Part shown: in pieces, positions 14,596 through 54,880 of the stretch | Layout: every line of letters starts with the position of its first letter | Position numbering within the stretch: the first letter of the stretch is position 1 | Source: Verrucomicrobiota bacterium | GTDB taxonomy: Bacteria; Verrucomicrobiota; Verrucomicrobiia; Verrucomicrobiales; Akkermansiaceae | NCBI GenBank assembly: GCA_027619375.1 | Contig: JAQCFL010000003.1 | Coordinates: 1-57,276, forward strand | Direction: 5' to 3' | DNA: 57,276 nt | Program-made: the position numbers and the translations under genes | The notes under the pieces: model-generated | Databases searched by the model: none | What the model was told of the DNA's origin: nothing | What the model saw: only the letters and a program-made list of their open reading frames with translations

Positions 14596-14614
14596 GTCAC
14601 ACGATGATGTGAGG
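14596..14614 (-). promoter_or_regulatory. Copy of the recurring CWTCGTGYGAY motif
   Basis: The minus strand reads CCTCACATCATCGTGTGAC, 100 nt upstream of the frameshifted PEP-CTERM gene start. It matches copies at 16810, 41857, 47878 and 54863. TCACA and TGTGA also form a local inverted repeat. It may be an operator or activator site; the binding protein is unknown. Confidence 0.5.
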
Positions 14615-14783
14615 TCGGCCCACCGCGCCGCAAGCAGGTGTTGTAGGGCCATTCAATTACTGGCCCTGGCCGCCGCAACCTGCGGCCATGAAGGCTTCCC
14701 GCCTCGTGCCTGCGGGGGCGTGGACCCTGCCGCCGACAAGCGAGCCGCCCCTCCGCTTCCTCCCGTCCGGAAGACCCCAAAGG

Positions 14784-14814
14784 AAACGGCGACTCCGGGT
14801 TGGAGCCGCCGTTT
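14784..14814 (-). terminator. Hairpin downstream of the 14896-16695 gene
   Basis: A 13-bp stem with one mismatch (AAACGGCGACTCC against GGAGCCGCCGTTT) and a 5-nt loop lies 81 nt after the stop codon. On the minus strand it is followed by a moderately T-rich stretch rather than a clean T-run. It probably terminates the upstream gene. Confidence 0.6.
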
Positions 14815-14895
14815 CGTTGGATTGCCTGCGAAAGGGATTTCCGGCCCGCCGTCCGCGGCACCGGGGAAGCCGGGCCGCGGGCAGGGGCGGAATCA

Positions 14896-16695
14896 TCATT
14901 CTGGTGCGGTCTCCGTGACTTGCACGTCGTCGATGTACCAACCCAGGTACTCGGCGGTGGTTCCGCTCAGACACCATTCGATGCGCACCATCTGGCCGAC
15001 GGCGGCGGTGATGTCGATCGCGGGGACGTCCTTCCAGTTGGCGAGGTTCACTTCACCGGAATCATCCGCAGTATAGACGGCGGCCACGATCACGTCATCG
15101 GTGGTAGCATTGATGATGTTGACCACCGCCGTGTCGTCGGCCTGGAGGTCGAGGGCCTCGGCAAAGGTCAGTTCGGCACCAGCCACGCCGGTCAGGTCGA
15201 TGACCGGCGAACGCAGGCAGGTCTCGGTGGGAACGATGTATTCCCCGGCATCGGCGAGGCCGAGGTTGGTGCCCCAGCAATTGGTGGAACCACCGTTACC
15301 GGTGAGGACGTCACCGCCGGGGCTGGTGGAGTCCGGGTCACCGTGCTCCCAGGAGCTGCCGGTCGCGCCTGCGACCTTGAGCGTATAGCCGCCGTCGTCA
15401 GCCTCGAAGTCCTCCTCATAAAACGGCAGCGGATCCTTCTCGACCACCGCGAAAAAGCGGGTCGGGTCACCCGGCGGCAGGGGAATGGTGAGCAGGTTGG
15501 TCCCGCTCCCCGAGGCCGGGATGTTCTCGTTGCTGTCCCAGACCGGCCAACCCGCGCGGGGGATCGAGAGATCGGTCTCACTAATCAGGTCGTAAACCTT
15601 CCCCACCTGGCTGTTCCAAGTGAGGTCAAGGTTTGCGCCGTCCTGGTCGATGGTCAGCACGAAGGTGGGCCCGCTGGACGAGACGACCTCCAATAGGCCG
15701 TTCCCAGTGAAAAGGGCGCTCTCGTTGTCAGCGCCGAGGTCTATGATCGATCCAACCCTGCCCCATTTGCCTCCGGCCTGCTCCAAGCCTTCGATATACA
15801 GGCCGGCAATCGTGTCGGTGCCGGTGAAATTCAACTCAAAGGTCCCGTTGTTGGTGATGTAGATCTTGGTTGTATCAGGCAGCGAGGAGGCGGTCGTGAG
15901 CCGGATAATGCTCGTGTCGAGAATCGTGTTGCCCGTGTAGGCGTTGCCCGAGTTGGCGAGGACCAGCCTCCCCTTGTCATTTGAATGGCCGCCCAGCGGG
16001 CCGGACCTCTGGACATGGTGGACGCCGCTGCCGAGCACCCCGCTCACCGTGTGGAGCTTGGGCCTGAAAGTGCCCCCTGATTCGGAGAGGAATGATCCCC
16101 CCTGGAGGTCAATGTCGCCGTTCAAGGTGAGGCCCCCAGGGCGTCCAAAAAGAAGGTCTACGGTGTTCGTACTCGTGATTGAACCATTGTACGTGGCGTT
16201 GGCGTTGTTTCCGCCACTTGTCCCGAGGGTCACGGTGCTTCCGCCGGCCGCCTCGAGAACGAGGTTTGGATCCATCACAAATCTCTGGTCGCCACCCGTG
16301 GAAACCACCGCGTTGGCGTCACCCAAACCGCTTGTGTGCACGTGGATGGTACTGGCGAGGCCATTGACGTTGGCGAAGGGGCTGGCAGTCGATGGGATTA
16401 CCATCCTGCTGACCTGCACACTACCGGACACATTCATCGCAAAGCTGGCAATGTTTAGGTGGTTGATGTAAACAACGTCGTCGGACGCTGTGGTGGCAGT
16501 TCCTCCATCGGAGAAACCGCCCGAGTTGTCCGTGGTCCAAAAGGCATCCGTACCCCAGGTTCCACCGTTGCCAAACCCCGGGTCGGTACCGTTCTGGTCC
16601 CAGTAATAGTCCGCCGCCTGGGCGGAGCCCGCAGCCACCGCCACGATCAAGCCGGCCAGCAGCGCCTTTATTGTCTTCAGGTAATCTTTCATCAT
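14896..16695 (-). CDS. Secreted beta-rich protein with C-terminal MAM/jelly-roll-like domain
   Basis: The 599-residue protein has a signal peptide (LKTIKALLAGLIVAVAAGSAQA). A beta-helix-like passenger region follows, with the repeat-type motifs YYWDQNGTDPGFGNGGTWGT and AYTGNTILD seen in autotransporter-like proteins. Next is a short domain of the kind common in Verrucomicrobiota secreted proteins (LTWNSQVGKVYDLISETDL), and then a C-terminal sandwich starting FYEEDFEADDGGYT and ending WCLSGTTAEYLGWYIDDVQV. Unlike its paralogue at 13458-14496 it has no PEP-CTERM tail, so its anchoring is unclear. ATG codons at 16695 and 16692 are equivalent choices. It is probably a cell-surface adhesin or glycan-binding protein; no catalytic motif was recognised. 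Confidence 0.75.
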   Translation of the reverse strand: MMKDYLKTIKALLAGLIVAVAAGSAQAADYYWDQNGTDPGFGNGGTWGTDAFWTTDNSGGFSDGGTATTASDDVVYINHLNIASFAMNVSGSVQVSRMVIPSTASPFANVNGLASTIHVHTSGLGDANAVVSTGGDQRFVMDPNLVLEAAGGSTVTLGTSGGNNANATYNGSITSTNTVDLLFGRPGGLTLNGDIDLQGGSFLSESGGTFRPKLHTVSGVLGSGVHHVQRSGPLGGHSNDKGRLVLANSGNAYTGNTILDTSIIRLTTASSLPDTTKIYITNNGTFELNFTGTDTIAGLYIEGLEQAGGKWGRVGSIIDLGADNESALFTGNGLLEVVSSSGPTFVLTIDQDGANLDLTWNSQVGKVYDLISETDLSIPRAGWPVWDSNENIPASGSGTNLLTIPLPPGDPTRFFAVVEKDPLPFYEEDFEADDGGYTLKVAGATGSSWEHGDPDSTSPGGDVLTGNGGSTNCWGTNLGLADAGEYIVPTETCLRSPVIDLTGVAGAELTFAEALDLQADDTAVVNIINATTDDVIVAAVYTADDSGEVNLANWKDVPAIDITAAVGQMVRIEWCLSGTTAEYLGWYIDDVQVTETAPE

Positions 16696-16773
16696 TTTAA
16701 TTTGTTTTTCCGGAGTTCTAACTTCACGAGTCATTCGACCTGGAAACTGACACTAGTTTGATTGAAACAGGGC

Positions 16774-16829
16774 ATATCGTGCGAGGGCAAGGGGAATCAA
16801 ATTTTGCCTATCGCACGATGATGGGATGG
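16774..16829 (-). promoter_or_regulatory. Recurring motif plus inverted copy upstream of the secreted-protein gene
   Basis: The minus strand at 16829-16810 reads CCATCCCATCATCGTGCGAT, 115 nt upstream of the gene start. A second, oppositely oriented copy (ATCGTGCGA on the plus strand, 16776-16784) makes a 9-bp inverted repeat with it, 26 nt apart. A looser variant lies at 16846-16862. Paired sites would suit a dimeric regulator. Confidence 0.5.
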
Positions 16830-16929
16830 CAGCGCTCTTATCAGGTCTCGTGCGAAGACGAGCCCTCCTTTGCGATCATTCCATACCGATTGTCGGTTCC
16901 GCCTCCCGGGTTGCTCGGGGAGGTCAATC

Positions 16930-18510
16930 TCAGAGGATCCGGATGATCGACAGCGAATGGGGTGGCAGACTGACCTTCCCCTGGCTGACCTTGATCTGGG
17001 ACCTCACGGGCACCACCCGGTCGGGATGCTCCGCATCGTTGAAGGCGTCGGGCGAATCACCGGCAAGGGTCGCGATGTCGAAGGTGCCGTCGAGCAGTTG
17101 GTCGCCGAGTTTGATGGTGCAGACGACGTTGGCTTCAGGATCGCGGTTCGTCAGGGCGATGGCCCAGCGCTTGCCCGATTCGTCGGTGGTGGCAATCCCG
17201 TCGAGTTGTTCGTTGCGCTGCCCCGCCTCCAGATTCATGGGGACGACCCGCGCTTCCAGGTCATTGGCATACATCGCCAGGGTGTGGAAGGTGGTGCGTC
17301 TCACGATGCCCTTGGGGTGGACGCGGAGGGGGCCGCGGGTGTTGACGATCGGGGCGATGTTGGCCATCCCCACATCGTCGCAGTGCCGCAGGCAGGCATT
17401 GAGGAACGCGGATGTGAACACGGCATCGGCCATGGTGTAGGTGCTGTCGATGGCATTGTCCTCGCGTCTCTTGATGAACTCCGCAGCCTTCTCGTCGTCC
17501 GCCCGCACCACGCCCTTGCGCGGGAAGCCCGGATGGAACCAATGGCGGAGGTTCCATTCGTCGTAGGCGATCTTGATCTTGCCACGGAACCCGGCCTCCT
17601 CGATGTTCTTGACGACGCCGATGATCGTCTTCTCCGGTCCGCCACAGAATTTCATGCACTCCTTGTAGGTGATGGGCTTTTCCTTGTTGTGCCAGTAGGA
17701 ATGCACCGCCATATAGCTGAGGTCCGCGCCGGCAGCCTTGAGCAGGGGCAGATTCCATTCGCGTTTGTCCAGCCAGGCCGCGGCGGCCAGCTCGATGTCC
17801 GGGTCGGCGGCCTGCATCAGTCCGGCGCACTGGTGGACGAGCGGCCCCCATGTTTCCGGCGTCTTGCGGCCGATCTCCCAGTATCCGTAGTTTTCGTTGC
17901 CGATGCTCCAATACTTCACCTTGTACGGTTGCTCGTGGCCGTTGGCCTTGCGCAGTTCGGCGTATTCGCCGGTGGTTCCGTTGCAGTATTCCACCCATTG
18001 CCTCATCTCCTCGGGGGTGCCGTTGCCGGCGTTGGTGCAAATGTAGGGCTCGCAGCCGACCAGGCGGCACCATTCGACAAACTCGTCGGTGCCGAAGGTG
18101 TTGGGGTCGGTCGCGCCCCAGACCGGATCCGGCACGGGCTGGCGTTCCTTGCCCACGCCGTCCTTCCAATGATAGCCGCTGACGAAGCATCCGCCGGGCC
18201 AGCGCACCACCGAAAGTTTCAGCTCCTTCATTGCGGCGATGACGTCCTTGCGGAAGCCGCGCTCGTCCGCCCGCGGTGAGCCGGGCTCAAACAGGCCGCC
18301 GTAGATCTGATCGTCGAAATGCTCGATGAAGCCCCCGAACAGCATCGGGCTATACGGCCTTGACGGGGCGGTGGTGTCGATGGTGACGAGCCCTTGCGCC
18401 TCCGGCGCGGAATCGGCGCCAGTCTTGTCTTTCGCCGCGGCGGAATCGGGGACGCTGAGTCCCGCCATCAGTATTGCCAAGGCCAGGATCGGGGTGTTTC
18501 GCATGTTCAT
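16930..18510 (-). CDS. GH51 alpha-L-arabinofuranosidase, secreted
   Basis: This retaining alpha-L-arabinofuranosidase releases alpha-linked arabinofuranose from arabinans, arabinoxylan or arabinogalactan side chains. The 526-residue protein has a signal peptide (PILALAILMAGLSVPDSAAA), a (beta/alpha)8 barrel with acid/base Glu206 in WSIGNENYGY and nucleophile Glu318 in IAYDEWNLRHW, and the usual C-terminal beta domain. FGGFIEH and VVRWPGGCF are typical GH51 strands. ATG 18510 and ATG 18504 are equivalent starts. It is the last gene of the large minus-strand cluster that begins at 29571, separated from the GH29-like gene by 150 nt that contain no recognised site. Most GH51 enzymes are cytoplasmic; export is consistent with the rest of this locus. 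Confidence 0.9.
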   Translation of the reverse strand: MNMRNTPILALAILMAGLSVPDSAAAKDKTGADSAPEAQGLVTIDTTAPSRPYSPMLFGGFIEHFDDQIYGGLFEPGSPRADERGFRKDVIAAMKELKLSVVRWPGGCFVSGYHWKDGVGKERQPVPDPVWGATDPNTFGTDEFVEWCRLVGCEPYICTNAGNGTPEEMRQWVEYCNGTTGEYAELRKANGHEQPYKVKYWSIGNENYGYWEIGRKTPETWGPLVHQCAGLMQAADPDIELAAAAWLDKREWNLPLLKAAGADLSYMAVHSYWHNKEKPITYKECMKFCGGPEKTIIGVVKNIEEAGFRGKIKIAYDEWNLRHWFHPGFPRKGVVRADDEKAAEFIKRREDNAIDSTYTMADAVFTSAFLNACLRHCDDVGMANIAPIVNTRGPLRVHPKGIVRRTTFHTLAMYANDLEARVVPMNLEAGQRNEQLDGIATTDESGKRWAIALTNRDPEANVVCTIKLGDQLLDGTFDIATLAGDSPDAFNDAEHPDRVVPVRSQIKVSQGKVSLPPHSLSIIRIL

Positions 18511-18660
18511 AAGGTGTGTTTTGTTGGTGATTTGGATGTGAATTCTCCGGTTCCCGGGTCGGCCGCTACGGCAAGGGCCGCGCCGCCGTTCGCCGGGCGA
18601 GGCCTTGAAGCCTGGCAGGCGAATCGACTCCCGTTGATGGTCGGTGCGTTTGCCATATCA

Positions 18661-19701
18661 TCAGGATCCCACCTTGTCATTAACCCGATGCAGCTGCTCG
18701 ACCGACCCGGGTGCCATCGTTCCTTCCTGATGGATGCCCACATTGAAGGTCATCGGGGCCATGTTGCGGTTGCAGGTACGGATGTAATCGCTCACCTGTT
18801 GGTCGCCATACAGCGGCGGCCGGATCGGCGTGTCGGGCTTGGTCTGGACCCAGTTCTTGTCTTCCAGAGGGGTCCAGCCAAACCACTGCAGGCCGTTGTC
18901 CAGATAGCGGCTCGTGGCCGGGGTTTTGAGGTTGCCCATTTCCCCGGCCCAGTAATCCTGGTGGGTGGTGAACAGGAATTTCTGGTTGAAGCCGCCGTTG
19001 TAGGTGACCAAGCGGCCCGGATGCCCCTTCTTGGCGGCCACCGTGAATTGCTCCCACGGAAACTGGAAGCCGGCCATGTCCGTGGTCACGCTCTTGAACG
19101 GACCACGGGCATCGAGCGAATAGGGACTGTCAAACCACCACGCACTGACCTTGTCGCCATATCGTTCACTCATCAGGGTGATGATCTCCATCAGGTTCCG
19201 GGCGAGCACGTTCTTGTCCTGACCGTCGTAGCCCACCGCCTTGCGCCATTCGGGATCGTTCTGGTTGTTGCAGGAATGATTGTAGTAGACCAACAGGCGC
19301 CTGCCCCTGGCCGCCAGCCCATCCGCCAATTCTCCGAGCAGATCGCGTTCGCAGGTCCGGCCCGGCAGGATGTCGTCGATCACGGGATGCGGGGCGGGCA
19401 GCATTTGCAGGGCGTGGGTCGCGGTGAACAAGACGTAGTCGGCTCCGATGTGTTCGACGGCGGCGAGAAAACCCTTCAGGTCAAAGCCGGCCACGGCCTC
19501 CTGGAATGGCTTCGGTTTGCCGGTGCTCGGAGCGGTTTGTGCCGTCCAATGGACGCCCACTCCAAAGCGGCACTTGGCCAGCCAGTCGGTGTTGGCCCGC
19601 GCATATTCCGGTGCTGGTTTGCCCGTATCCGCGTTTCCCGGTCCGGGCTGAAGCGTCAATGCCGCCGCTCCGGCGGTCTTGATGAATGCGCGTCGTTTCA
19701 T
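18661..19701 (-). CDS. GH29-like putative glycosidase with Tat signal
   Basis: This 346-residue protein has a twin-arginine export signal (MKRRAFIKTAGAAALTL) and a barrel that resembles alpha-L-fucosidases of GH29. CRFGVGVHWT corresponds to the family's FGIFIHWG strand, GADYVLFTATHALQM to the strand ending in the substrate-binding histidine, and WWFDSPYS carries Asp191 at the place of the nucleophile. It is shorter than typical GH29 proteins and lacks their C-terminal beta domain, so the assignment is to the fold rather than to a proven activity. ATG 19701 was chosen because the Tat motif starts there. It lies 32 nt after the GH95-like gene in the same direction and is probably co-transcribed. 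Confidence 0.65.
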   Translation of the reverse strand: MKRRAFIKTAGAAALTLQPGPGNADTGKPAPEYARANTDWLAKCRFGVGVHWTAQTAPSTGKPKPFQEAVAGFDLKGFLAAVEHIGADYVLFTATHALQMLPAPHPVIDDILPGRTCERDLLGELADGLAARGRRLLVYYNHSCNNQNDPEWRKAVGYDGQDKNVLARNLMEIITLMSERYGDKVSAWWFDSPYSLDARGPFKSVTTDMAGFQFPWEQFTVAAKKGHPGRLVTYNGGFNQKFLFTTHQDYWAGEMGNLKTPATSRYLDNGLQWFGWTPLEDKNWVQTKPDTPIRPPLYGDQQVSDYIRTCNRNMAPMTFNVGIHQEGTMAPGSVEQLHRVNDKVGS

Positions 19702-19733
19702 GACTAAGTGGAATCTGCCCGTGCGGTCTGCCG

Positions 19734-24280: not shown

Positions 24281-25647
24281 GGCGTGGTGGGTAAGGTTGA
24301 TTTTTTTCCGCGCCCCGGCTTCACCCCGGGCACCGGTTTCTTTCCGCTGGGCGCCTCCTGCGCCATGGCGAGGAGACGCGCAACGATCTCGGGATGATCG
24401 GCGGCGACATCCTTCGATTCGCCGATGTCGTCCTTCAAGTTGTAAAGTTCCGCCGCCACATAGGGAGCGGCCTGCCCGCCACCATTTCCCTTGCCCCTTT
24501 TGTTGAACCACAACTTCCATTCCTTCCAGCGGAGCGCCCGGGGCTCCGGGCCGATGTGGTAAACAAAATGATCCCGTGCGCTTTCAGGGGCCTTGCCGAG
24601 GAGGTAGGCGGACTGGTCGACACCATCCAGCACGCGATCCTGCGGGAGGTCGGCGCCCGCCAGCGCCGCGAAGGTCGGGAGCACGTCCAGGGTCGCGAGG
24701 ATGCCGTCCCGGGACTCCCCAACCGGCACCCCCGGGCCGCGCAGGATGGTCGGCTCCCGGAATCCCCCCTCGTAGGCGGAGCTCTTCCCGCCGCGCAGCG
24801 GGAGGGCCGAACCGGTCGCCTGGTGCCCCCCGTGGGACTTCCTGAACTGCTCCTCCTTGGAATTCCACGGGCCGTTGTCGCTGGTGAACAGCACGAAGGT
24901 GTTCTCCTCGAATCCGAGTTCGCGGACCGCGTCGAGGAGTCGGCCCGCATTCCAGTCGGCCTCCTCCATGACGTCCCCGTAGAGATCGCCGCCCGACTTC
25001 CCCTTGAACTGCTCGGAGGCGTCGATCATGACATGCGCCATGGTGTGGGCGAGGTAGAGAAAGAACGGCTTCTCCTTCTTCTGCTCCCCGAGAAACTTGA
25101 TGGCCTCGTCGGTGTAGCGGCGCGTCAACGAGGACATGTCCGAGGTGGTCTCGAGTTTTTCGCCGTCGCGATGAAGGGTGACCTTGCCGCTGTCGTTCGC
25201 GCCCCACGTTCCGAAATAATGTTCGAAGCCCTGGTCGTTGGGCATGAGGCCCTCCTGGTAGCGCCGGTTCGACATGTCCCACTTGCCGATGCAGCAGGTC
25301 ACATAACCGGCCCCTTTCAACACCTCCGCCACCGTGACTTCGTCTCCGTTGGTCCGCCATCCCCCGCCGACCCGGACCGGATAGCGACCGGTCATGAGCG
25401 CCCCGCGCGACGGACCACACACCGCCTGCGCATAGAAGTCGGTGAGCCGCACGCCCTCCCCCGCGAAGCGGTCGAGCCTGGGCGTCTGGAAGTTTTTCGC
25501 CCCGAAGCAGCCGACATCCGCGTAGCCGACGTCATCCATGAAGATGATGATGAAGTTCGGCCTCTCCGAGGCGGAGAGGGCCGTGAGCGTCAGGGCAAGG
25601 GCCGGGCATAGCACCCGGAAGGTTCTCCAAATGAAATGTGCGTTCAT
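24277..25647 (-). CDS. Secreted sulfatase (Cys-type, CGPSR motif)
   Basis: This 456-residue sulfatase has the canonical signature: Cys77 in C-G-P-S-R-G-A-L. It has a signal peptide (FRVLCPALALTLTALSA) followed directly by NFIIIFMDDVGYADVG, and later FTSDNGPW and GKWDMSNRRY. The start at ATG 25647 was chosen because the 112 upstream in-frame codons run into the esterase gene and are not signal-like. A Lys/Arg-rich C-terminal tail resembles those of many PVC sulfatases. Its TGA overlaps the GTG of the GH95-like gene. It lies 37 nt after the esterase gene. No substrate can be assigned from sequence. Confidence 0.87.
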   Translation of the reverse strand: MNAHFIWRTFRVLCPALALTLTALSASERPNFIIIFMDDVGYADVGCFGAKNFQTPRLDRFAGEGVRLTDFYAQAVCGPSRGALMTGRYPVRVGGGWRTNGDEVTVAEVLKGAGYVTCCIGKWDMSNRRYQEGLMPNDQGFEHYFGTWGANDSGKVTLHRDGEKLETTSDMSSLTRRYTDEAIKFLGEQKKEKPFFLYLAHTMAHVMIDASEQFKGKSGGDLYGDVMEEADWNAGRLLDAVRELGFEENTFVLFTSDNGPWNSKEEQFRKSHGGHQATGSALPLRGGKSSAYEGGFREPTILRGPGVPVGESRDGILATLDVLPTFAALAGADLPQDRVLDGVDQSAYLLGKAPESARDHFVYHIGPEPRALRWKEWKLWFNKRGKGNGGGQAAPYVAAELYNLKDDIGESKDVAADHPEIVARLLAMAQEAPSGKKPVPGVKPGRGKKSTLPTTP

Positions 25648-25684
25648 GATCGTTGCTGTGTTCCGCGCGGGGGGGCTTCCGCGT

Positions 25685-27454: not shown

Positions 27455-27474
27455 GTTCTTATCGAGTTGTCCTG

Positions 27475-30156: not shown

Positions 30157-31230
30157 GTGGCAAACCTACCCACGATCCTCAGGAAGCGCACCCTCGCGGC
30201 GTTCCTTGTGGCGACGTTCCTTGTCGACACCGCGCCGCTTCGGGCCGCCCCGCCGGATCTGACCACGATTCCCATGCCAGTCGTGGACACCTCCGCGACC
30301 TACAACCTCGGGTCCACCGGAGCGCGCGGGTGGATCTATGAAAACAACAATCTCCTCACCAGCGAGAGCCGCCAGATCCTCGTCACGCAAGTCGATCCGG
30401 GTTCACCCGCCGCCGGGATTCTCGCGGTGAACGATGTGATCCTCGGTGCCAGCGGGACCGCTGCGGCCCCCGTGGCCTTCCAGGCCGACGCCCGCAAGGG
30501 CCTCGCCAACGCCATCACTGCGGCGGAGGAAACCGCCAACGGAGGCGCGCTCAAGATCCTCCGCTGGCGCGGCGGAACCACCACCACGCGGACCCTTGCG
30601 CTGGAAGTGATGGGAACCTACAGCGCCACCGCCCCCTACGACTGCCCCAAGTCGGCCAAGATCCTGCAGCAGGCCGCCGCCCATGTCGCCGCCAACTCCG
30701 AATTCGGGCGCTATTCGGCGGGCGGGCTGGCGCTCCTGGCCTCCGGTAATCCGGCGTGTCCTCGGTGGCCACGACGGTATCATTACCGGCGCCGGCGGCA
30801 CCAGCAGCACCTCGGACGGCGTGTTGGACGACGCCACCCAGACGATGCCATGGACGGGCGGGGACATCGGTGTTGATTATGGCGTGCCCAATATTGTGGT
30901 CGGCAAGATCGAATGGGATGCGGACACCGGCGGCGAGGACATCATCACGGTGGTGAGCTTCCTTCAGACCGATGTCATGGACCTGGCCGCTTTCAACGCA
31001 CTGGTCGCCGCCAAGCCCGCTCTCTCCAGCGCCAATTGGGCCTCCAACAAGCCGAACCTCGACCAAACTGCTTTCGACACGCTTACCCTCGCAGGCGGCA
31101 AGTTCTTCGTCGACGAGATCCGTCTTGCCACGACTTTCGGCGAGGCGGTCCCGTATGTCCCCGAGCCCGGCGCGCTCTCGTTGCTGGCTCTCGGTGGAAT
31201 GGCACTCCTGCGCCGCCGCCGGGCCGCTTG
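30157..31230 (+). pseudogene. Chimeric remnant: DUF6288-type 5' end joined out of frame to a PEP-CTERM gene
   Basis: From a GTG at 30157 the frame encodes a signal peptide (KRTLAAFLVATFLVDTAPLRA) and then a segment closely matching the PDZ-like part of the DUF6288-type protein at 9193-11643 (SRQILVTQVDPGSPAAGIL, AVNDVILG). The homology stops at LALLASGNPA, near 30752. After that, another frame encodes a secreted domain (VLGGHDGIITGAGG, VGKIEWDADTGGEDI) ending in a PEP-CTERM signal (PEPGALSLLALGGMALLRRRRAA) at 31230. Two unrelated genes were evidently fused by a deletion. A strong terminator follows, probably inherited from the PEP-CTERM gene. Confidence 0.75.
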
Positions 31231-31260
31231 ACCTTGCAGGCCGCCTTCGTCAATCATCAC

Positions 31261-39316: not shown

Positions 39317-41776
39317 TCAATTGACCGACCATTCCTGAAGGGCGCAGGGGGTGTCGGAGGTCTCGATTTTCAGCCGCACGGCAGTGGTCTTGATCGGAGT
39401 GAAGAGGACTTCATTGGCTGCGTCGGGCTGCAGTGCGTATGCGCTCCCGGTATTGACCGGTTGCCAGGCATCTCCGTCCTTGTAGAGCAGCTGCCAGGAT
39501 TTCGGGAGGACAAGGAGGGTGCCGAGGACTCGATCATTCCAGTAAATTGTCTCGGGTTGATCGACCGCCCAATAAACGGAGGTCTGGCTGAGTTCCCGGG
39601 CTTCGTCCCATTCGTATTGGATCCATTGGGTGCCATCCGGATCCTCCTTCGGAATGAATCGGGGGACTGATTTCAATGCAGACCTGGGGCCGGCCCTCCG
39701 GTCGTTCAGTGCGGCCAGTTGCCCGGCGGGTTGTTTGCCGGAGGCGGAGACCATGGCGACCGCGCCGGCAGTCGGAGCGGGCAGGGGAGTGGCCGTCGGG
39801 ATCGACCGCGGAAGCCAGACATCCATGTATCCTTCGCCGCGGTTGGCCCAGGCAGAGTAGGGGATGGCAACGAAGGGATGCGGCCGGAGCTTGGCGGGCC
39901 GGCCCGGTTCCGGTTCGAAGGCGATCCCGGCCTCGGCGGTGATCAGGACGACGTCGCCGAGAAGCTCCTTGCGTCGTTCGGCTTTCAAGGCGGCCCCGTC
40001 CGGCAGCACGATGGCATCGGTGCGCAGGCCGCCGTTGTCGATGGCCTCGACACAATAGACGAGGGGGCCGCGTTGCAAGGCGACGCGGTCGCGGTCGGCC
40101 TCAATTTTGTCATGGGCCAGGACGCGGCGCACCGGCATGGGGAGGTTCAGCTCGATTACCTCGCCTTTCTTCCAGGTGCGCGTCAGGGGGAGGTAGCCCT
40201 TGTCGCCCGGCGCGTCGGCATCAAGCGCGACGGGTTGGCCGGCCACGGTGAGGGTCGGGCGTGCGGGGTCGGGTGCGGCGAATCGATAGAGGTCGCTTGG
40301 CACGGGCGTCTCCCTTGCCCATCCCGGGATCCGGAGGGCGACCGTGAACGGCTGGTCGGGGCCGGAGGCGACGATGATCCTGACCCGCCCGTCGTTCGGA
40401 TAGTCGGTTTCCAGCCTGAGGTGGACGGGACCGTTTTCGAGGTCGAGGGTGGCTTCGCCGGCGACGAAGAGGTTGATGTAGATGGTCTCGGCCTTGGTGG
40501 CATAGGCCATCGCGCCGACCTGGGGGATGATGCGGACCAGATTCGACTGGCAGCAGGCCGGGTCGAAGCTCCCGTGGCGACGATCGTTGCCGCGGCTTGC
40601 CAGAGGATTGGTGTAGAAAAACCTGTCGCCGGTCAGCGAGATGCCCGAGAGCACGCCATTGTAGAGGGCGCGCTCGAGCACATCGATGTATTGGGCATCC
40701 TCATGGAGCAGGGCCATGCGGTGGCTCCACAACACCGTTGCGGCGGTTCCGCAGGTCTCGCAATAGGCGGTGTCGTTTGGGAGGGAATAGGGGTCGCCGA
40801 AGCCTTCGTCATGGTACTGTCCGGTTGCGGAGCCGCCGGTGATGTATAATTTCCGCCCGACGACATCGTCCCAAATGCGGTCGAGGGCGCGGGCGTACTT
40901 CTGGTCGCCGCAGAGCGCCGCGACATCGGTCATGGCGGCGTAGGTATAACCGGCCCGGACGGCATGTCCGACGGCATGGTTCTCCTCGATGAGGGGGACG
41001 CGGTCCTGATTGTAGTCGGCCGAGCGTGGCTTTTCGGCTCCCACCTGTTCCGATTCCCCGGGCCTGCGGCCCCGCTGGTCGAGGAAGAACTTGCAGAGGT
41101 CGAGGTACCGTTGCTCGCCGGTGGCCCGGTAGAGCTTGACCAGCGCGAGTTCGATTTCCTGGTGTCCGGGGACCTCGTAAACCTTGTCAGGGCCGAATCG
41201 CGCGTCGATCAGGTCCGCGTAACGGCACGAGGCGTCCAGCAGATCGCGCTGGCCGGTGGCGACGTAGTGGGCGACGCCCGCCTCGAGGAGGTGGCCTGCG
41301 CTGTAGAGGATGTGTGACTTGTGGATTTCGTGCCAGCGGGAGTCCTGTTCCTGGAGGATGAATCGTGTGCAGAGAAACCCGTCCTTCTGCTGGGCCGCGA
41401 TGACGCGCCCCACCAGTCCCGCGAGGGCTTCCGCGGCGGCCGGGGCGGGTCGCGTTTGCAGCGAGTAGGCCGCTCCCTCGATGATCTTGAACACGTCCGA
41501 GTCGTAGGCGGCGTTGCCGGCGAAGGGTTTCGGGTCGATCCCGGCGGCCCGGTCGAAATTCGCCATGCGCGGGGTCCGCCCGATAAAGTCAATATTGTGC
41601 GGCACCGTGACGGTGGCATTGGTGGTTACCCGAGGCCCCCAGAATCCACCGGCAATCGTCACGTTGCCCACCGATGCGGGGCGCAGCGGGTAGTCTGCCG
41701 CGAGGGCCGGGAGGGACAGGGCCGCCACGGTGAGAAGGCTGAGCGCTGGCAGAGGATGAGTGGATGATCGTTTCAT
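39317..41776 (-). CDS. GH127 beta-L-arabinofuranosidase with C-terminal discoidin-like module
   Basis: The 819-residue secreted GH127 has a signal peptide (PALSLLTVAALSLPALAA). Catalytic residues by alignment with HypBA1 are acid/base Glu324 in HDEGFG, zinc ligands Glu340 and Cys342 in CETC, and Cys408-Cys409 in ACCQSN. After the normal end of the family, at about residues 700-819, it has an extra beta module (SVYWAVDQPETI, PKSWQLLYKDG, ALQEWSVN). The same module occurs at the C-terminus of the GH127 at 48044 and inside the MGH1-like protein. It is likely a carbohydrate-binding accessory. The gene has its own upstream region with a copy of the recurring motif. Confidence 0.9.
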   Translation of the reverse strand: MKRSSTHPLPALSLLTVAALSLPALAADYPLRPASVGNVTIAGGFWGPRVTTNATVTVPHNIDFIGRTPRMANFDRAAGIDPKPFAGNAAYDSDVFKIIEGAAYSLQTRPAPAAAEALAGLVGRVIAAQQKDGFLCTRFILQEQDSRWHEIHKSHILYSAGHLLEAGVAHYVATGQRDLLDASCRYADLIDARFGPDKVYEVPGHQEIELALVKLYRATGEQRYLDLCKFFLDQRGRRPGESEQVGAEKPRSADYNQDRVPLIEENHAVGHAVRAGYTYAAMTDVAALCGDQKYARALDRIWDDVVGRKLYITGGSATGQYHDEGFGDPYSLPNDTAYCETCGTAATVLWSHRMALLHEDAQYIDVLERALYNGVLSGISLTGDRFFYTNPLASRGNDRRHGSFDPACCQSNLVRIIPQVGAMAYATKAETIYINLFVAGEATLDLENGPVHLRLETDYPNDGRVRIIVASGPDQPFTVALRIPGWARETPVPSDLYRFAAPDPARPTLTVAGQPVALDADAPGDKGYLPLTRTWKKGEVIELNLPMPVRRVLAHDKIEADRDRVALQRGPLVYCVEAIDNGGLRTDAIVLPDGAALKAERRKELLGDVVLITAEAGIAFEPEPGRPAKLRPHPFVAIPYSAWANRGEGYMDVWLPRSIPTATPLPAPTAGAVAMVSASGKQPAGQLAALNDRRAGPRSALKSVPRFIPKEDPDGTQWIQYEWDEARELSQTSVYWAVDQPETIYWNDRVLGTLLVLPKSWQLLYKDGDAWQPVNTGSAYALQPDAANEVLFTPIKTTAVRLKIETSDTPCALQEWSVN

Positions 41777-41815
41777 GGGTGAAAGTCCCCCGGCAGGCGG
41801 AACCGGGCAAAGTCT

Positions 41816-41877
41816 ACAATAGCGGGCGGGCAGTCGCTGCCGTCAAGGGGAGGCGGGTCGCACGAAGAGGGGACTGC
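41816..41877 (-). promoter_or_regulatory. Promoter-like elements and recurring motif ahead of GH127
   Basis: On the minus strand the recurring motif (GCAGTCCCCTCTTCGTGCG, ending 41857) is followed 10 bp later by TTGACG (41846-41841) and then by TATTGT (41821-41816). The spacing of 19 bp between the last two is longer than ideal. The motif ends about 10 bp ahead of the -35-like element, a position typical of activator sites. Confidence 0.5.
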
Positions 41878-41901
41878 GAAGCCCGGTGTTTCACGAACGG
41901 C

Positions 41902-43686: not shown

Positions 43687-43707
43687 GGTTTCTATCAGAA
43701 CAGGGGG

Positions 43708-46083: not shown

Positions 46084-46113
46084 CGGGACGTTCGTTCGGT
46101 TGGAGGAGCACTT

Positions 46114-47694
46114 TCAGCGGGCCGGGCGATTCGATTTCGTGTCGGGGCAGGGGATCAGGGCATCGACGCCCCGCAGGTAGTCCATGAGGTGGTCGTGCAA
46201 CTCGGCGGCTTTCTCCGGCATTGTTGCGAGCAGGTTCTTCTGTTCGCCGATATCGCTGTCGAGGTCGAAGAGCATCCTCTCGTCGTTGTCCCAATACTTG
46301 ATCAACTTGTAGTTTCCGACCCGGATCGCCGATTGCGGGCGTTCGCCGTAGGCTTTTCCGCGTTTCGGTTCGCCGAAAAAATTCGGGTAGTGGAAGATCA
46401 GGGCGGGGTCCTTGCGGGTGATGGTGCCCTGGTTCCCGTGCTCCAGCAGCGGCTTGAAGGAATTGCCATCCAGGCCGTCGGGGAGTTGCAGGCCCTCGCC
46501 GGCCAGTGCGCAGAAGGTTGGCAGGAAATCCATGCCGGTGACCGGCACGTCGCAGAAGGAGCCCTTGGCGATCCCCGGTCCGCGCACGACCAGGGGCACG
46601 CGGAGGCCGCCTTCCCACAGGTAAAATTTCCCCTTGCTGAGCGGATAGTTGTGATCGCCGTATGCGCCGTTGTCGGAGGTGTAGAACACGTAGGTGTTGT
46701 CCGCGATCCCCAGTTCCTCGATCTTGTCGAGCAGCAGGCCGAGCCCGCTGTCGAGATCCTCGGTCATGGCGGCGAAATCGGCGCGATCGTGGTGCTCGCC
46801 CTTGGGCAGTTTCTGATATTTGGCGAGGGTCTCCTTCCGGGCCATGGTTTTGATGTGCACGGCGTAGTGGGAAACCTGGAGAAAGAACGGCTTGTGCGCG
46901 GCGACCTGTCGTTCCATGAAATCCGCGGATCGCCGGGTCACCTCGAAGATGCGCTTCGGATTGTCGGGCGTGAAGGGGATCGGGGCGATCTTGTCCGTCG
47001 GAAGCGCCCGTAGCGCGCTGGCCACTTTCGCGTCGTCCGGCGCGAGAAACTCCGCCAACTTGATCTGTGCGTTCGCATCGACTTTTCGACTGGTCAAATC
47101 GGCTACCGCGGGGTCGGTCTTCCGCTCCCCGGCCGCGCGGTCCACCTCTGCCTGAAGGGCTTTCCATTTCCTGCTGTAGTCGAGGTCGCCCTTGAGATTG
47201 CCGTCGTCATTTCCAGTTCGTCCGTCGCTTTCATCGAATCCCGCCTCGGACGGATGCAGCTTGATGTGCCATTTGCCGAAATGGCCGGTCGCGTAGTTGG
47301 GGTCCACGCGTTTCAGCAGCTGCGCGATGGCGGGGGAACCATTGGTGCGGGGCGTTTTGCCGGTGTTGAAGGTGATTCCGAGCCGGGCTGGCGACTTGCC
47401 CCATTGGATGGCATGCCGCGTCGGGGAGCAGACTGCGGCGGGAGCGTAGGCGTTGGAAAACCGCATGCCGTCCCCCGCGAGCTTCTCAAGATTCGGGGTG
47501 CGGTGGTAGTCGCTGCGCGAGTCCTCGCGCTGGGCCGCCATCTGCACGGAGGATCCGGTCCAGCCCTGATCGTCGCTGAGGATGAGGATGATATTGGGGC
47601 GCCGGACAGGGGCGGGCTCCGCGGCCAGGCAAGGGAATAAGCCGGCGGCGGCCGCCAGGCCGAGGAGCGGAAGGAGGTTTTTGGAAATTGGCAT
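46114..47694 (-). CDS. Secreted sulfatase (Cys-type, CSPTR motif)
   Basis: This 526-residue sulfatase has Cys89 in the canonical C-S-P-T-R motif, a signal peptide (MPISKNLLPLLGLAAAAGLFP) and the metal strand NIILILSDDQGW. It differs clearly from the three others in the window: an insert at about residues 48-66 (SVQMAAQREDSRSDYH) and another long insert near residues 140-230 rich in charged residues. It is probably from a different sulfatase subfamily. ATG 47694 was chosen because the upstream in-frame codons are not signal-like. It is the first gene of the sulfatase-GH36-GH2 unit. Formylglycine maturation would be needed, by an enzyme outside the window. Confidence 0.86.
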   Translation of the reverse strand: MPISKNLLPLLGLAAAAGLFPCLAAEPAPVRRPNIILILSDDQGWTGSSVQMAAQREDSRSDYHRTPNLEKLAGDGMRFSNAYAPAAVCSPTRHAIQWGKSPARLGITFNTGKTPRTNGSPAIAQLLKRVDPNYATGHFGKWHIKLHPSEAGFDESDGRTGNDDGNLKGDLDYSRKWKALQAEVDRAAGERKTDPAVADLTSRKVDANAQIKLAEFLAPDDAKVASALRALPTDKIAPIPFTPDNPKRIFEVTRRSADFMERQVAAHKPFFLQVSHYAVHIKTMARKETLAKYQKLPKGEHHDRADFAAMTEDLDSGLGLLLDKIEELGIADNTYVFYTSDNGAYGDHNYPLSKGKFYLWEGGLRVPLVVRGPGIAKGSFCDVPVTGMDFLPTFCALAGEGLQLPDGLDGNSFKPLLEHGNQGTITRKDPALIFHYPNFFGEPKRGKAYGERPQSAIRVGNYKLIKYWDNDERMLFDLDSDIGEQKNLLATMPEKAAELHDHLMDYLRGVDALIPCPDTKSNRPAR

Positions 47695-47877
47695 CGGGTG
47701 GTTCACGAGGGGCAGGCGTCTGCTACGCAGTGTTGAGGAATCATATTGCGGATTCCGGGTGGCGGTCCGAAGCAACACTCATGGGGAATGACCTTGTCAT
47801 CAACCATGTTCACCCGAGCCGGGGAATCTATGCACCCTTCCGCTTCACTGGGGAAGGCAATTGCTTTGCGTCAGGAG

Positions 47878-47899
47878 GTCGCACGAAGGGGTGACTGCC
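47878..47899 (-). promoter_or_regulatory. Copy of the recurring CWTCGTGYGAY motif
   Basis: The minus strand reads GGCAGTCACCCCTTCGTGCG and continues to GAC at 47878. The copy shares GCAGTC as well as the core with the one at 41857. It lies 184 nt upstream of the sulfatase start and 145 nt upstream of the divergent GH127 start, so it may serve either or both. Confidence 0.5.
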
Positions 47900-47957
47900 G
47901 GGATAATCGGTCGGACGTGAGCATGTTTTGCCAAATGGAGGAACTGCTCAATGGCAG

Positions 47958-47986
47958 TTGCGGCCCGCCGATCCCGCTGATAAAAT
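47958..47986 (+). promoter_or_regulatory. Promoter-like pair ahead of GH127
   Basis: TTGCGG (47958-47963) and TAAAAT (47981-47986) are 17 bp apart, 57 nt upstream of the GH127 start codon. The -10 matches five of six consensus bases and the -35 three of six. It is plausible but not proven. Confidence 0.4.
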
Positions 47987-48043
47987 ACCAGCCCAAACCG
48001 AAACCCATGCTGATTTCAACGTCACCCTGCAACCCTTGAACTA

Positions 48044-50437: not shown

Positions 50438-50457
50438 TGGGCCGGTGAGGGAATGGA

Positions 50458-53415
50458 TCAATTCGAATGAATGAAGCCGTCGCTCCGGATGACTTCCCTG
50501 ATGAGTGACTGCAGTTTGAAATCATCCTTTTCGGCCTTGTCGACGATCGCCTCGACGGTGAGGGAATCGGCGGGACCAAGCTCCCGCGAGAGGGCGAATC
50601 GCAGGAGGTGGGCGGTGAAGGCCTTCGCAAACCGCCGGTCCTCCCGGAGAATGGCCTCCTTGAAGCGCACGATGCCGTCGAACTCGTATTTCTTCATCAG
50701 GGTGCCGCTGGGATCGACTTTTCGGCCGTTGTCGTACTGATCCCGCCACCGCCCGGTGATGTCGAAATTTTCGAGGGCGAATCCGAGGGGGTCGAGCCGG
50801 GAGTGGCAACCCGCGCAGTCCGGGTTCTCGCGGTGCTGGGCGAATTTTTCGCGGATGGTGAGATTTTTCACGCTTTCGTCATCCTCGTTCAGTGGGGGAA
50901 CATCGTTCGGCGGCGGGGCGGGAGGGTCGTTGAAGATCACCTCGATGACCCAAACCCCGCGCGCAATGGGGTGGGTCCGGGTCGGGCCGGAGGTCATGCT
51001 CAGCATTGCGGCATTGGTGATCACGCCGCCGTAACGCGGGTCCGATGCCGCCACCCGATCGAAGGTCGGCGAACGCATTTTCTTGCGCATCTCGTCGTCG
51101 AAACGACGCACGGTGTCCCTGCGGGCGTTTTTCAGATCCTGGTTTCTGGGAACCTTTTTCAAGGCGGCCTCGGACTGCTCCAGGGTGAGGTGCAGGGCCT
51201 CCTGCCGCTCCTTCGCCGCAGGGCTCATGGCGCGCAGGAGATCGTCTCCGGAAATGAAATTGTCGCCGCTGCCGGAGGCGGCCACTTCGCCGGGCTCCAG
51301 GGCGCGATCGTAGAGGCGGGCCCGGCCGAGGCTTACGGTGAGGTATTTGTTGCCCCCGGGCGGCAGATGACGCAGGCCGAAAAGAAGGGAGGACTGGTTG
51401 GCGGGAAAGGTCATGGCGTCCTTGCGGTACGGTTTGCCGTAGGGCTCGCCGTTTCGGTAGAGGGTGGTGGTCCCGTCTGCCCGGTAAACCATGACCAGGT
51501 GCAGCTCCTGGCCGGGTTTGGTTTCCGGGGTGGCGTCCCGGAAGTCCTCGGTGCGGGCGAATCCGTTGCTCCCGGAAATCCAATGCTGCGGCTTGCGTTC
51601 CCCGAGCACGATCGCGTCGAAGACCTCGCCGGGCCCATGGATTCCCATCAGACCGCCGCCGCTCTGATTGAGGTCGTGCACCTTGCACCAGATCTCGAGG
51701 GTCTTCGCCTTCAACTCAATGGGCAGCATCGCGCTCTGCAGGTAGGCCTTGTCGAGGACAAGCATGTCGTCCTCGTAACGGATGTTGCCGTGGGCCTGCA
51801 AGTTCAGCGAACCGACCGAATCCTTCAGGTCGCCATCGAATTCCCAGGCCGCAATGGGTTTGAGGTCCGGCGGCTTGTTCGCGTCCGGATTCTTCCTTCG
51901 GGCGGCCAGGACCCCGGCCCGTGCCGATTCCACCAGCGATTCCAATTCGGCGCGGGTGGTCTTGATCGTCTCCTGCAGGGAAACCCGCTGCTCGTCATTG
52001 GCCCGGTTCTTGGCGGCGAGCTGTTCGGAATCGACCTGCGGAGGGCTCAAGTCGGAGGTGTACCATTCCTTGAGGAACTCGCTCTGGTAGGCAAAGGAGG
52101 GTGCGATGAGTTCGGTGATGGGCCGGTCCTCGACAAACACCGCATCGAACAGGAGGAGTGGCTCGAGGACCATCTGGAGGCTGGCCGGGTTTTCCTGATC
52201 CAGGCTGAAGATCCTTGCCAGGTTGGGGTCCGGGGTCGCGGCGAGGACGTTCTCGAGCTGCATCCATTGCGCGGGGAAGGAGTCGAGGAAGCGCTCGATC
52301 TTCGGATCCCGGAGCATCCGGGTGACGGTTTGGTCGAAGACCGCGGGCCGGGCCAGTTCGCCGCTTGCGGCCAGTCGCAGAAGCTCCTGGTCCGGGATGC
52401 TGCCCCAGAGAAAGAAGGAAAGGTTGGAGGCGATCACATGGAGATCCTCCCCGTCGCTGGTCTCCCCGGGACGGAAGAGGAACCGGGGGGACGAGAGGAT
52501 CGCGGAAGCCGCCTTCTTCATGCCTTCGGTGAACGACATTCCCTGCTGCATTCGGGACAAGGTGTAGGCGGTGTAGCGATCCAGTGTTTCGGGATCGATC
52601 GGGGCGCGAAAGGCCTGTGTCAGGAAGCGTTCGAGGCGCGTTCGGACTTCCTGCTCCCGATCCGTCCCGGCGCGTGGCTCCCCGAAGAACTGGTTCCAAA
52701 TCCCCACCGTCTCCCGGTTGAAATCCGGGCTGTTGAGAATGGAGAGACTGAGCTTCAGGAAGGTGTCCAGCAACAGGGGGGAAAGGGTCAGCTGGTTCGC
52801 CTGGTTGTCGAATCCATGCGCGGCCCGCAAGTCCTTCGGAAAGGCGCGCACCTCCGCGAGGCCGCCGGTGGTCCGGAGGGACTGGCAGCTCACCGTGACC
52901 TGGTCCGGCATCCTGCCATCCGCCGGCTTGAGGTGGTTCCCTTGGCGCGTCATCAGCTTTTCGGGCAGCGCGAAGACGTCCCGGTTCATCTGGAAGAGAT
53001 CCCGGACCGCGTAGTTGTACTGGAACCGGTTCAAGCGCCGCAGCGGCGCGGCCGTCACCTCTCCGGCGGACACCGATTCCCGCAGCATGGTCCTGAGGCC
53101 GGCGAGCAGTCTGGCGCGCTCCGGATCCTCCGGTTGCGGCTCGTCCTCGGGCGGCATGTCGCGAGCCTCGATTGCCTCGATCATGTCGTTGATCAGGTCC
53201 GGCTTCGCCAGCAGTTGCTCAACGGTCTTGACCTCGACGAGGTTGACCTTTCCCTTCACCTTTTTTTCGCCATGGCACTTCGTGCAATGCCCGGCGAAGA
53301 GCGGCTGCATGAAGGTGTCGAATTCGGCGGCCGCCGGCGCTTCCGCCAGAAGACGGAGCGGAAGCAGGAGGCAACAGCCGAAAATGATGTGGGGGAGGGA
53401 CATGGATCGGGGCAT
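50458..53415 (-). CDS. DUF1592-type exported protein with c-type heme motif and LamG-like insert
   Basis: The role is unknown. The 985-residue protein has a hydrophobic N-terminal signal and a heme c attachment motif C-x-x-C-H at Cys44-His48 (HCTKCHGEKKVKGK, the PSCyt type). DUF1587 (RLNRFQYNYAVRDLFQ), DUF1595 (QAFRAPIDPETLDRY) and DUF1592 (RPGETSDGEDLH through FFLWGSIPDQEL) follow, then a LamG-like sandwich inserted at about residues 545-720. DUF1588 (SMTSGPTRTHPIARGVW) and DUF1585 (ALSRELGPADSLTVEAI) end the protein. A second C-x-x-C-H (CAGCHSRLDPLG) lies in DUF1588. Such proteins are hallmarks of planctomycetes and verrucomicrobia and always pair with DUF1552 proteins. The start at 53415 leaves 1 nt after the DUF1552 stop. 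Confidence 0.85.
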   Translation of the reverse strand: MPRSMSLPHIIFGCCLLLPLRLLAEAPAAAEFDTFMQPLFAGHCTKCHGEKKVKGKVNLVEVKTVEQLLAKPDLINDMIEAIEARDMPPEDEPQPEDPERARLLAGLRTMLRESVSAGEVTAAPLRRLNRFQYNYAVRDLFQMNRDVFALPEKLMTRQGNHLKPADGRMPDQVTVSCQSLRTTGGLAEVRAFPKDLRAAHGFDNQANQLTLSPLLLDTFLKLSLSILNSPDFNRETVGIWNQFFGEPRAGTDREQEVRTRLERFLTQAFRAPIDPETLDRYTAYTLSRMQQGMSFTEGMKKAASAILSSPRFLFRPGETSDGEDLHVIASNLSFFLWGSIPDQELLRLAASGELARPAVFDQTVTRMLRDPKIERFLDSFPAQWMQLENVLAATPDPNLARIFSLDQENPASLQMVLEPLLLFDAVFVEDRPITELIAPSFAYQSEFLKEWYTSDLSPPQVDSEQLAAKNRANDEQRVSLQETIKTTRAELESLVESARAGVLAARRKNPDANKPPDLKPIAAWEFDGDLKDSVGSLNLQAHGNIRYEDDMLVLDKAYLQSAMLPIELKAKTLEIWCKVHDLNQSGGGLMGIHGPGEVFDAIVLGERKPQHWISGSNGFARTEDFRDATPETKPGQELHLVMVYRADGTTTLYRNGEPYGKPYRKDAMTFPANQSSLLFGLRHLPPGGNKYLTVSLGRARLYDRALEPGEVAASGSGDNFISGDDLLRAMSPAAKERQEALHLTLEQSEAALKKVPRNQDLKNARRDTVRRFDDEMRKKMRSPTFDRVAASDPRYGGVITNAAMLSMTSGPTRTHPIARGVWVIEVIFNDPPAPPPNDVPPLNEDDESVKNLTIREKFAQHRENPDCAGCHSRLDPLGFALENFDITGRWRDQYDNGRKVDPSGTLMKKYEFDGIVRFKEAILREDRRFAKAFTAHLLRFALSRELGPADSLTVEAIVDKAEKDDFKLQSLIREVIRSDGFIHSN

Positions 53416-53416
53416 C

Positions 53417-54775
53417 TCAGGTCCAGAGGTCGGAGATGACCCCGGAGCTGTCCGCATACTGGTCGATTTCCAGCCCCATCAGCTTGGCGAGGGTCAGCCA
53501 CATGTTGGAGTTCAGGGTGCCGCTCTTGCACTGGATGAAGCGCCCCTGCTTGATCTGGCCCTGGCCTTTGCCCGCGACGATCAGCGGCAGATCGAAGTAT
53601 TGGTGGGTGGCTCCGTCGCCCAGGCCGGCCCCGTAGGTCACGAGGGAGTTGTCGAGAAGGGAACTGCCGTCCGCCTCCTTGATCGCCTTCATCCGCTCGA
53701 GCAGGTAAACGTATTGGTCCATGTGGAAGCTGTCGATCTTCTGCACGCCTTTGTAGCCGTCGCCCTTCTGATTGTGGGTCATGGTGTGGTGCTGAACCGG
53801 CTTGTCGAAGACCCCTTCGTAGAGCAGGGGGGCGTCCCATCGCTCCGGGCCGACCATGAAGGTGGCGACATTGGTGATTCCCATCTGCAGGCCGAGCAAC
53901 ATCAGGTCCATCTGCAGTTTGATATACTCGCCCCGGGGGAGAATTTCGTTCTTCGGGACATCGACATCGACTCCCTTGAGGAGGGTCCCCATCTTGGCGA
54001 TCCGGATTTCGACCTCACGGATCATCCCCATGAATTCGTCGAGGGTCTCCCGGTCGTCGCGCCCGAGTTTCTTGGCGAGGGTTTTGGCGTCGGCCAGCAT
54101 CAGGTCGGTGACGTCGTCGAGGTGATCCCGGTAGTTGTCGGCCATGAAGAGCCGTTCGTAGAGCTTTTGCGGTTCCTTGATGGAGGGGGCGATGCGGTCC
54201 GGCCCGTACCACGAGATGTTGTCAAAGTAGATGTCCTCCTTGCCGGCCTTGTAGCCGTTGCAGCTGATCTCGAGGGTGTTGAAGGGGGTGGCCTGGCCGA
54301 CGTGATCGCCGACGATCTGGTCGAGGCTCCGGCCGTTCGGATGGCGCATGCCCTTGGCCGTTGCTTGTTCGGGTGAAACACTCGTCAAGTAACAGGAGGC
54401 GCCCTGCGCATGGACGTCCTGGCCATCCTTGTAGGTGCGGTCGAGACCCGTCACGAGGGTGAAATCGTTGGTGAGGCCCGACAAGGGCTGCATGGTCGGG
54501 GTCAGATCGAGCGGGTAGATCCCCGGGGTGTTCAGAATCCGCTTCTGGTCCTTGACCTTGTCGGCATTGAAGCCCCCGACAAAGCCGGGGAGCTCCGAGC
54601 GCTCTTCGCCCGGGAAAAAGCAGCGTCGCACCAAGCCATTGGGGACATACATCATGACCAGCTTCTTGGAAGGGAGGGCAGGGAGGGCTGACTTGGCTGG
54701 CGCCGCCCCGAGGGACGGGAGGAACGGCAGGGTCAGCAGGGCACCCTGTGCTCGCAGAAATTGACGCCGGTTCAT
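53417..54775 (-). CDS. DUF1552-type protein with Tat signal
   Basis: The 452-residue protein has a twin-arginine signal (MNRRQFLRAQGALLTLPFLPS) and a sulfatase-like metal-enzyme fold pattern (KKLVMMYVPNGLV, SLVTYGAGLGDGATH). This is the DUF1552 family, whose activity is not established. It is the first gene of a two-gene unit with the DUF1592 protein, one nucleotide apart; the pairing is conserved in PVC bacteria and suggests a shared exported redox or cleavage system. ATG 54775 fits the Tat signal better than the upstream ATG. A copy of the recurring motif lies 88 nt upstream, which ties the pair to the same presumed regulon as the glycan genes. Confidence 0.85.
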   Translation of the reverse strand: MNRRQFLRAQGALLTLPFLPSLGAAPAKSALPALPSKKLVMMYVPNGLVRRCFFPGEERSELPGFVGGFNADKVKDQKRILNTPGIYPLDLTPTMQPLSGLTNDFTLVTGLDRTYKDGQDVHAQGASCYLTSVSPEQATAKGMRHPNGRSLDQIVGDHVGQATPFNTLEISCNGYKAGKEDIYFDNISWYGPDRIAPSIKEPQKLYERLFMADNYRDHLDDVTDLMLADAKTLAKKLGRDDRETLDEFMGMIREVEIRIAKMGTLLKGVDVDVPKNEILPRGEYIKLQMDLMLLGLQMGITNVATFMVGPERWDAPLLYEGVFDKPVQHHTMTHNQKGDGYKGVQKIDSFHMDQYVYLLERMKAIKEADGSSLLDNSLVTYGAGLGDGATHQYFDLPLIVAGKGQGQIKQGRFIQCKSGTLNSNMWLTLAKLMGLEIDQYADSSGVISDLWT

Positions 54776-54862
54776 GTTCACGGTGATGGGACGGTTCGGG
54801 ATCCCTATTTGTATCACGAAAATGCCACTTCCTGAAGCAGCGATGCATCACGGGCAGGCCGG

Positions 54863-54880
54863 GTCGCACGAAGATGTGAG
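54863..54880 (-). promoter_or_regulatory. Copy of the recurring CWTCGTGYGAY motif
   Basis: The minus strand reads CTCACATCTTCGTGCGAC, 88 nt upstream of the DUF1552 gene. It has the exact CTTCGTGCGAC core of the copies at 41857 and 47878 and the CTCACAT flank of the copy at 14596. Confidence 0.5.

Follow-up and report, generated by a model that had tools for sequence, protein, structure and literature searches.

Response regulators of the NarL/FixJ type, such as VraR, NarL, DevR and DesR, combine a receiver with a LuxR-type GerE domain, have a HisKA_3 kinase as partner and use dyad operators upstream of promoters. A two-component system of another kind, PrsK/PrsR, was recognised by comparative genomics together with a common upstream site of proteobacterial PEP-CTERM genes, and the table of that study holds no PrsK/PrsR entry for Verrucomicrobium spinosum (Haft et al. 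2006, PMC1569441). In this system PrsR is an NtrC-like sigma-54 activator. Control by an outward-facing sensor and a regulator encoded inside a cluster of CAZyme and sulfatase genes is also known from polysaccharide utilization loci; in Bacteroidetes this is exemplified by the HTCS, hybrid proteins whose output domain is of the AraC type. In Pontiella, HisKA_3 kinases and response regulators lie near sulfatases, and the part of that report considered here names no operator for these genes (PMC10880615).

The window, that is the whole stretch of 57,276 nucleotides analysed here, contains a locus that shares features with each of these systems. It encodes a NarL-type regulator with receiver and GerE domains and a HisKA_3 partner, and predicted dyad operators lie ahead of its genes; differently from VraR, NarL, DevR and DesR, the sensor bears discoidin domains, and the predicted operator, TCRYRYGATCRYRYGA, and the targets (PEP-CTERM and other secreted proteins, sulfatase, GH127) are undescribed for those regulators. 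With PrsK/PrsR it has in common the two-component nature, a common upstream site for PEP-CTERM genes and the discovery by comparative genomics, while the output domain is of the GerE and not of the NtrC-like kind. As in the polysaccharide utilization loci of Bacteroidetes and Pontiella, a sensor predicted to face outwards and a regulator are placed inside a CAZyme/sulfatase cluster; unlike the Bacteroidetes HTCS, the kinase and the regulator are separate proteins. A literature search of partial coverage found no description of the operator TCRYRYGATCRYRYGA, nor of a PEP-CTERM regulator or of an operator of CAZyme/sulfatase clusters for such bacteria. The predicted regulon is new, its kind, a NarL-type two-component system, is known, and its putative operator is defined; a candidate regulator, an operator and a target list are now named together, and secreted proteins of unknown role become linked to glycan sensing.

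The two-component pair and its gene cluster

The genes considered are the following.

4368-5087, minus strand: NarL-type response regulator, receiver and GerE domains (Pfam), proposed binder of the boxes
5047-7122, minus strand: partner sensor kinase with signal peptide, two discoidin (F5/8 type C) stretches, HisKA_3 and HATPase
13366-14496, minus strand: secreted gene 1, PEP-CTERM motif at the end, frameshifted near 13790
14896-16734, minus strand: secreted gene 2, paralogue of secreted gene 1
39317-41776, minus strand: GH127, predicted target of box 3
46114-47778, minus strand: sulfatase, predicted target of box 4
50458-53457, minus strand: DUF1587/1588/1592/1595 protein, predicted target of box 5 with the DUF1552 gene
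53417-54817, minus strand: DUF1552 protein, predicted target of box 5

Both domains of the regulator, PF00072 and PF00196, score above the cut-off, the nearest solved relatives are VraR and NarL, and no sigma-54 domain is detected by Pfam. A second close regulator was not found in the same genome, the next best one having 23-28% identity. The kinase gene overlaps the regulator gene and its product has PF07730 and PF02518 above the cut-off; a probable membrane segment was spotted by eye and lies under the hydropathy cut-off used. The box 1 gene heads a run of minus-strand genes, and the pair is among the last of them. No box lies directly ahead of the window's own kinase; for autoregulation, box 1 would have to act across a long operon.

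The remaining genes form a glycan cluster with three GH127, GH2, GH36-like, GH38 and GH95-like enzymes, an alpha-L-fucosidase, an arabinofuranosidase, sulfatases, a sodium:solute symporter, DUF6288 and DUF1552/1592 proteins. In secreted gene 1, the frame ending at 13741 resumes in another frame up to a clear PEP-CTERM end (IPEPGTMSLLGLVGLGLMARRRRR); the frameshift near 13790 may be genuine or an assembly error. On the plus strand, a shortened DUF6288 frame at 29998-30876 matches the family over its N-terminal third only and is possibly a gene remnant; it is followed by an ORF (30683-31231) with a borderline PEP-CTERM match.

Boxes in the window and in their own genome

A sequence-only reading of this DNA had reported five copies of the core CWTCGTGYGAY upstream of minus-strand genes, and exactly five are present, on the minus strand only and at the coordinates given there; three of them are the exact 11-mer CTTCGTGCGAC. 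The chance level of 0.03 proposed in that reading is too low, since dinucleotide shuffling gives 0.28 expected copies; five copies were reached in 0 of 100 shuffles. Hand alignment of the flanks extends the core to a 17-mer, TCMCMYCWTCGTGYGAY, here called the box.

14596-14612, minus strand: box 1, TCACATCATCGTGTGAC, 100 nt from the likely start of secreted gene 1 (14596 to ATG 14496); rank 1 with the relatives-only matrix (see below)
16810-16826, minus strand: box 2, TCCCATCATCGTGCGAT, ahead of secreted gene 2, 76 nt from the likely start (16810 to ATG 16734) or about 115 nt from ATG 16695; rank 2
16777-16784, plus strand: half-site TCGTGCGA, reverse orientation, adjoining box 2
16848-16855, plus strand: half-site TCGTGCGA, reverse orientation, adjoining box 2
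41857-41873, minus strand: box 3, TCCCCTCTTCGTGCGAC, ahead of GH127, 81 nt from the likely start (from 41857); weak matrix score
47878-47894, minus strand: box 4, TCACCCCTTCGTGCGAC, ahead of the sulfatase unit, 100 nt from the likely start (47878 to GTG 47778) or 184 nt from ATG 47694; rank 5
54863-54879, minus strand: box 5, TCACATCTTCGTGCGAC, ahead of DUF1552/DUF1592, 88 nt from the likely start (54863 to ATG 54775); rank 3

With the likely start codons, the distances (76-115 nt, and 184 nt) agree with the 81-184 nt first proposed. Of the two flanking motifs described as shared, CTCACAT corresponds to the box's own left arm, and GCAGTC lies outside it and is present at two sites only. The right arm, TCGTGYGA, is kept in 5/5 boxes and the left one, TC[AC]C[AC], in part; the left arm of the predicted dyad is described here as decayed. 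Octamers TCGTGCGA/TCGCACGA, counted on both strands, are non-coding in six cases out of six in a window whose called coding fraction is about 88%; those at 16777 and 16848 had escaped the first reading and flank box 2 in reverse orientation.

Pattern scans of the 4.08-Mb genome find six exact copies of TCMCMYCWTCGTGYGAY, namely the five of the window and one on contig C263 (position 2207), with no one-mismatch copy genome-wide and no exact copy of the controls; as the 17-mer was defined after the sites had been seen, these counts measure specificity and give no independent P value. The 11-mer occurs nine times in 4.08 Mb, five of them within the 57-kb window; among the other four, three are inside ORFs (L006, L007, L009) and the C263 copy is intergenic. 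The 9-mer core alone has no genome-wide enrichment (45 copies vs 41 in the control), and 12 of the 16 two-mismatch 17-mer sites fall within called genes; of the four that remain, two belong to an unrelated repeat of contig C52. This repeat, CGTAGCCTCGCGCGAAGGGGGGAGC, has two copies with common flanks (C52:5816 and C52:9609; L080, L081) and bears no relation to the box. An exact 18-mer searched in a collection of genome contigs gave nine single matches in unrelated phyla, taken as chance.

The C263 box (L070, 2207-2223) has a small secreted ORF on one side and a GH127 gene on the other, its orientation relative to the latter being ambiguous. It shares an identical 23-mer with box 5 and the flanks are alike over about 45 bp beside unrelated neighbouring genes, suggesting that a promoter segment was copied recently. 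This pair is what would favour an origin of the motif as a dispersed repeat, or as a promoter fragment that was copied, instead of an operator; such an origin is highly improbable for the motif as a whole, since the remaining copies have only the 17-mer in common, decayed one-mismatch copies are absent among 4 Mb that hold six copies, and relatives carry the same dyad within unrelated flanks. Indeed, a dispersed repeat would have many copies and long common flanks independently of promoters, and six copies with one flank-sharing pair do not fit this description. For the full box, neither an equal frequency in coding sequence nor membership of a repeat family, the two findings named beforehand as contrary to a regulon, is observed.

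The palindrome in relatives

Kinase orthologues were sought in the family and their surroundings compared. Just ahead of the orthologues in other genera lies a 16-bp palindrome, TCRYRYGATCRYRYGA; TCGCACGATCGTGCGA or a close variant immediately precedes the kinase in G053, G044, G123, G111 and both copies of G114, and it can be aligned base for base over its full length with the window site (e.g. TCGCACGATCGTGCGA vs TCACATCATCGTGTGA). Genome G114 has two diverged kinase/regulator copies (L158/L181 and L159) with one box each.

When the RY-degenerate palindrome is counted over 117 family genomes, 13 of the 25 occurrences fall in the five genomes with close orthologues and 12 in the remaining 112. 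By ORF context, 13/13 of the former are promoter-proximal, four of them (L144, L179:9842, L180:8490, L185) only after shifting an over-long automatic start; among the 12 latter, 11 of which were inspected, at least seven are within coding sequence and the other four lie at an edge, are ambiguous or are intergenic. The contrast between promoter and coding placement corresponds to a one-sided Fisher value of about 0.002 (conservative, by hand). A search for the same sites in related genomes, proposed as a check in the sequence-only reading, finds the matching palindrome at promoters in five family genomes. Boxes are absent from a genome of the same genus that lacks the kinase. Conservation of the motif across the family independently of the kinase was considered and set aside: other family genomes have scattered one-mismatch 17-mers and no exact one.

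The relatives' boxes stand before genes for the kinase and for PEP-CTERM proteins, for Ig-like proteins bearing an esterase domain, for a secreted protein of 3481 aa and for pilin-like proteins whose N-terminus resembles Verru_Chthon_A, as well as before a PEP-CTERM/sulfatase run. In the window the genes behind the boxes are the two secreted paralogues, one of them PEP-CTERM-ended, GH127, the sulfatase unit and DUF1552/1592; the two sets overlap in kind (surface proteins, sulfatases), which supports one function.

Further kinase orthologues came from a wider search, after the motif had been fixed. Four of them have boxes, two being exact palindromes (G348, G317) and two degenerate (G138, G031). 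In G138, a member of another family with a regulator 73% identical, GGACACGATCGTGCGA is found ahead of the kinase and TGGCACGATCGTGCGA ahead of the regulator and of a secreted gene; all three boxes have a strong right arm and a weak left one, like those of the window. The G031 box reads TCGTACGATGAGATGA. In the set of more divergent orthologues inspected (kinase identity of at most about 42%; G378, with an incomplete kinase, excluded), no box is present within two mismatches. Conversely, a symmetric matrix built from the relatives alone and run on the window gives 14597, 16811 and 54864 as the first three distinct matches, a third-best site this high being found in 0/20 shuffles; 47879 has one coding site ahead of it and takes the fifth rank, with 41858 further down, so that boxes 3 and 4 rest mainly on their likeness to the other three.

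The dyad is therefore conserved together with the kinase and regulator across genera, and its placement at promoters is evident from the sequence. Since relatives carry a matching palindrome before their own genes and regulator, the window sites are very probable docking sites, and the boxes are most probably operators of the NarL-type regulator at 4368-5087; the idea of a single regulator, possibly the local NarL-type one, is well supported by comparison, as the predicted operator tracks the pair in relatives. Further support comes from the regulator tree and from the hexamer beside the relatives' boxes (both below), from the lack of another close regulator in the genome and from the boxless same-genus genome that has no kinase. 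Points against this assignment are the decayed left arm of the window boxes and their missing hexamer, the lower matrix scores of boxes 3 and 4, the lack of a box just ahead of the window's own kinase, the ambiguous orientation of the C263 box and the boxless kinase orthologue of G040. Another factor encoded elsewhere, e.g. a LacI-, MarR- or CRP-like dimer, might co-regulate both the cluster and the pair, as 16-bp palindromes are bound by many dimeric regulators and sequence alone leaves the identity of the binder undecided. It is an unlikely candidate, because the box follows the kinase and regulator across genera and families, later-found orthologues included, and this is the gene pair common to the box-bearing loci in the relatives' stretches compared.

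In the mechanism proposed for the NarL-type regulator, the kinase (5047-7122) would face outwards with its two discoidin-type domains, probably carbohydrate-binding, and upon ligand binding would phosphorylate the regulator. The phosphorylated dimer would then bind the 16-bp imperfect palindrome TCRCAYSWTCGTGYGA and activate the secreted surface protein, GH127, sulfatase and DUF1552/1592 units, and possibly its own operon via box 1. Four elements of this model are inferences: that the regulator binds directly, that it activates and does not repress, the nature of the ligand, and that autoregulation takes place in this genome.

Promoter geometry and possible operator drift

A hexamer, [CT][AT][AG]G[AG][CT], abuts 13/15 of the relatives' boxes on one side only, vs 1% at random, the pattern having been picked after looking; examples are CTGGACGGCAGCG and CTAGGCAGATC...TATAAT. 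If read as a -35-like element, it would put the relatives' box at the position of a class II activator. No such abutting hexamer is present at the window boxes, where a TTG-type hexamer lies 10-11 nt past the box, one helical turn further, at 3/5. The idea that all window boxes are followed by the same -35/-10 layout was discarded, TTG-type hexamers being found at these three only.

The hexamer adjoining the relatives' boxes, together with a short TCACA/TGTGA stem that could form at box 1, might also indicate an RNA element or a special promoter read by an alternative sigma factor, and not a site for a protein dimer. This has very little probability: Rfam has no match in the window, the stem is lost at 41857 and 16810, and in relatives the dyad is symmetric and lies between divergent genes.

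In a tree of the regulators, that of the window groups with all the box-bearing ones (92/90), and genus g16 forms a separate clade (100/99). The recognition helix reads NTVSTH in the g16 regulators and HTVSTH in most of the box clade. In place of the palindrome, the interval from DUF6288 to the kinase in g16 holds a conserved block resembling TACTACGTTCGWATTA, with 12/16 positions like TCATACGATCGTATGA; its 14-base core occurs once per genome in 8/12 g16 genomes (G040 excluded) and is absent from the non-g16 genomes searched. In its strongly conserved form, CTACGTTYGWATTAGC, the block lies where the genes of DUF6288 and the kinase diverge (L152-L157 and further loci of g16), and it is probably the operator of g16's own regulator orthologue. 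A direct repeat, TTCACATC, was rejected as a g16 motif, being present in some members only.

It can tentatively be proposed, with some doubt, that a lineage-wide system of NarL-type regulator and discoidin sensor controls PEP-CTERM surface proteins and sulfated-glycan degradation, filling the role of PrsK/PrsR in proteobacteria, and that its operator drifts with the recognition helix: a palindrome in the mostly HTVSTH clade, the TACTACGTTCGWATTA-like block with NTVSTH in g16 and one strong arm in the lineage of the window. The G040 orthologue (kinase identity about 45%), labelled g16, falls outside both clades and reads H, and no box is present within two mismatches. The link between helix and box is loose, as G031 reads N and one of the G114 copies (G114a) reads A, and both are box-bearing.
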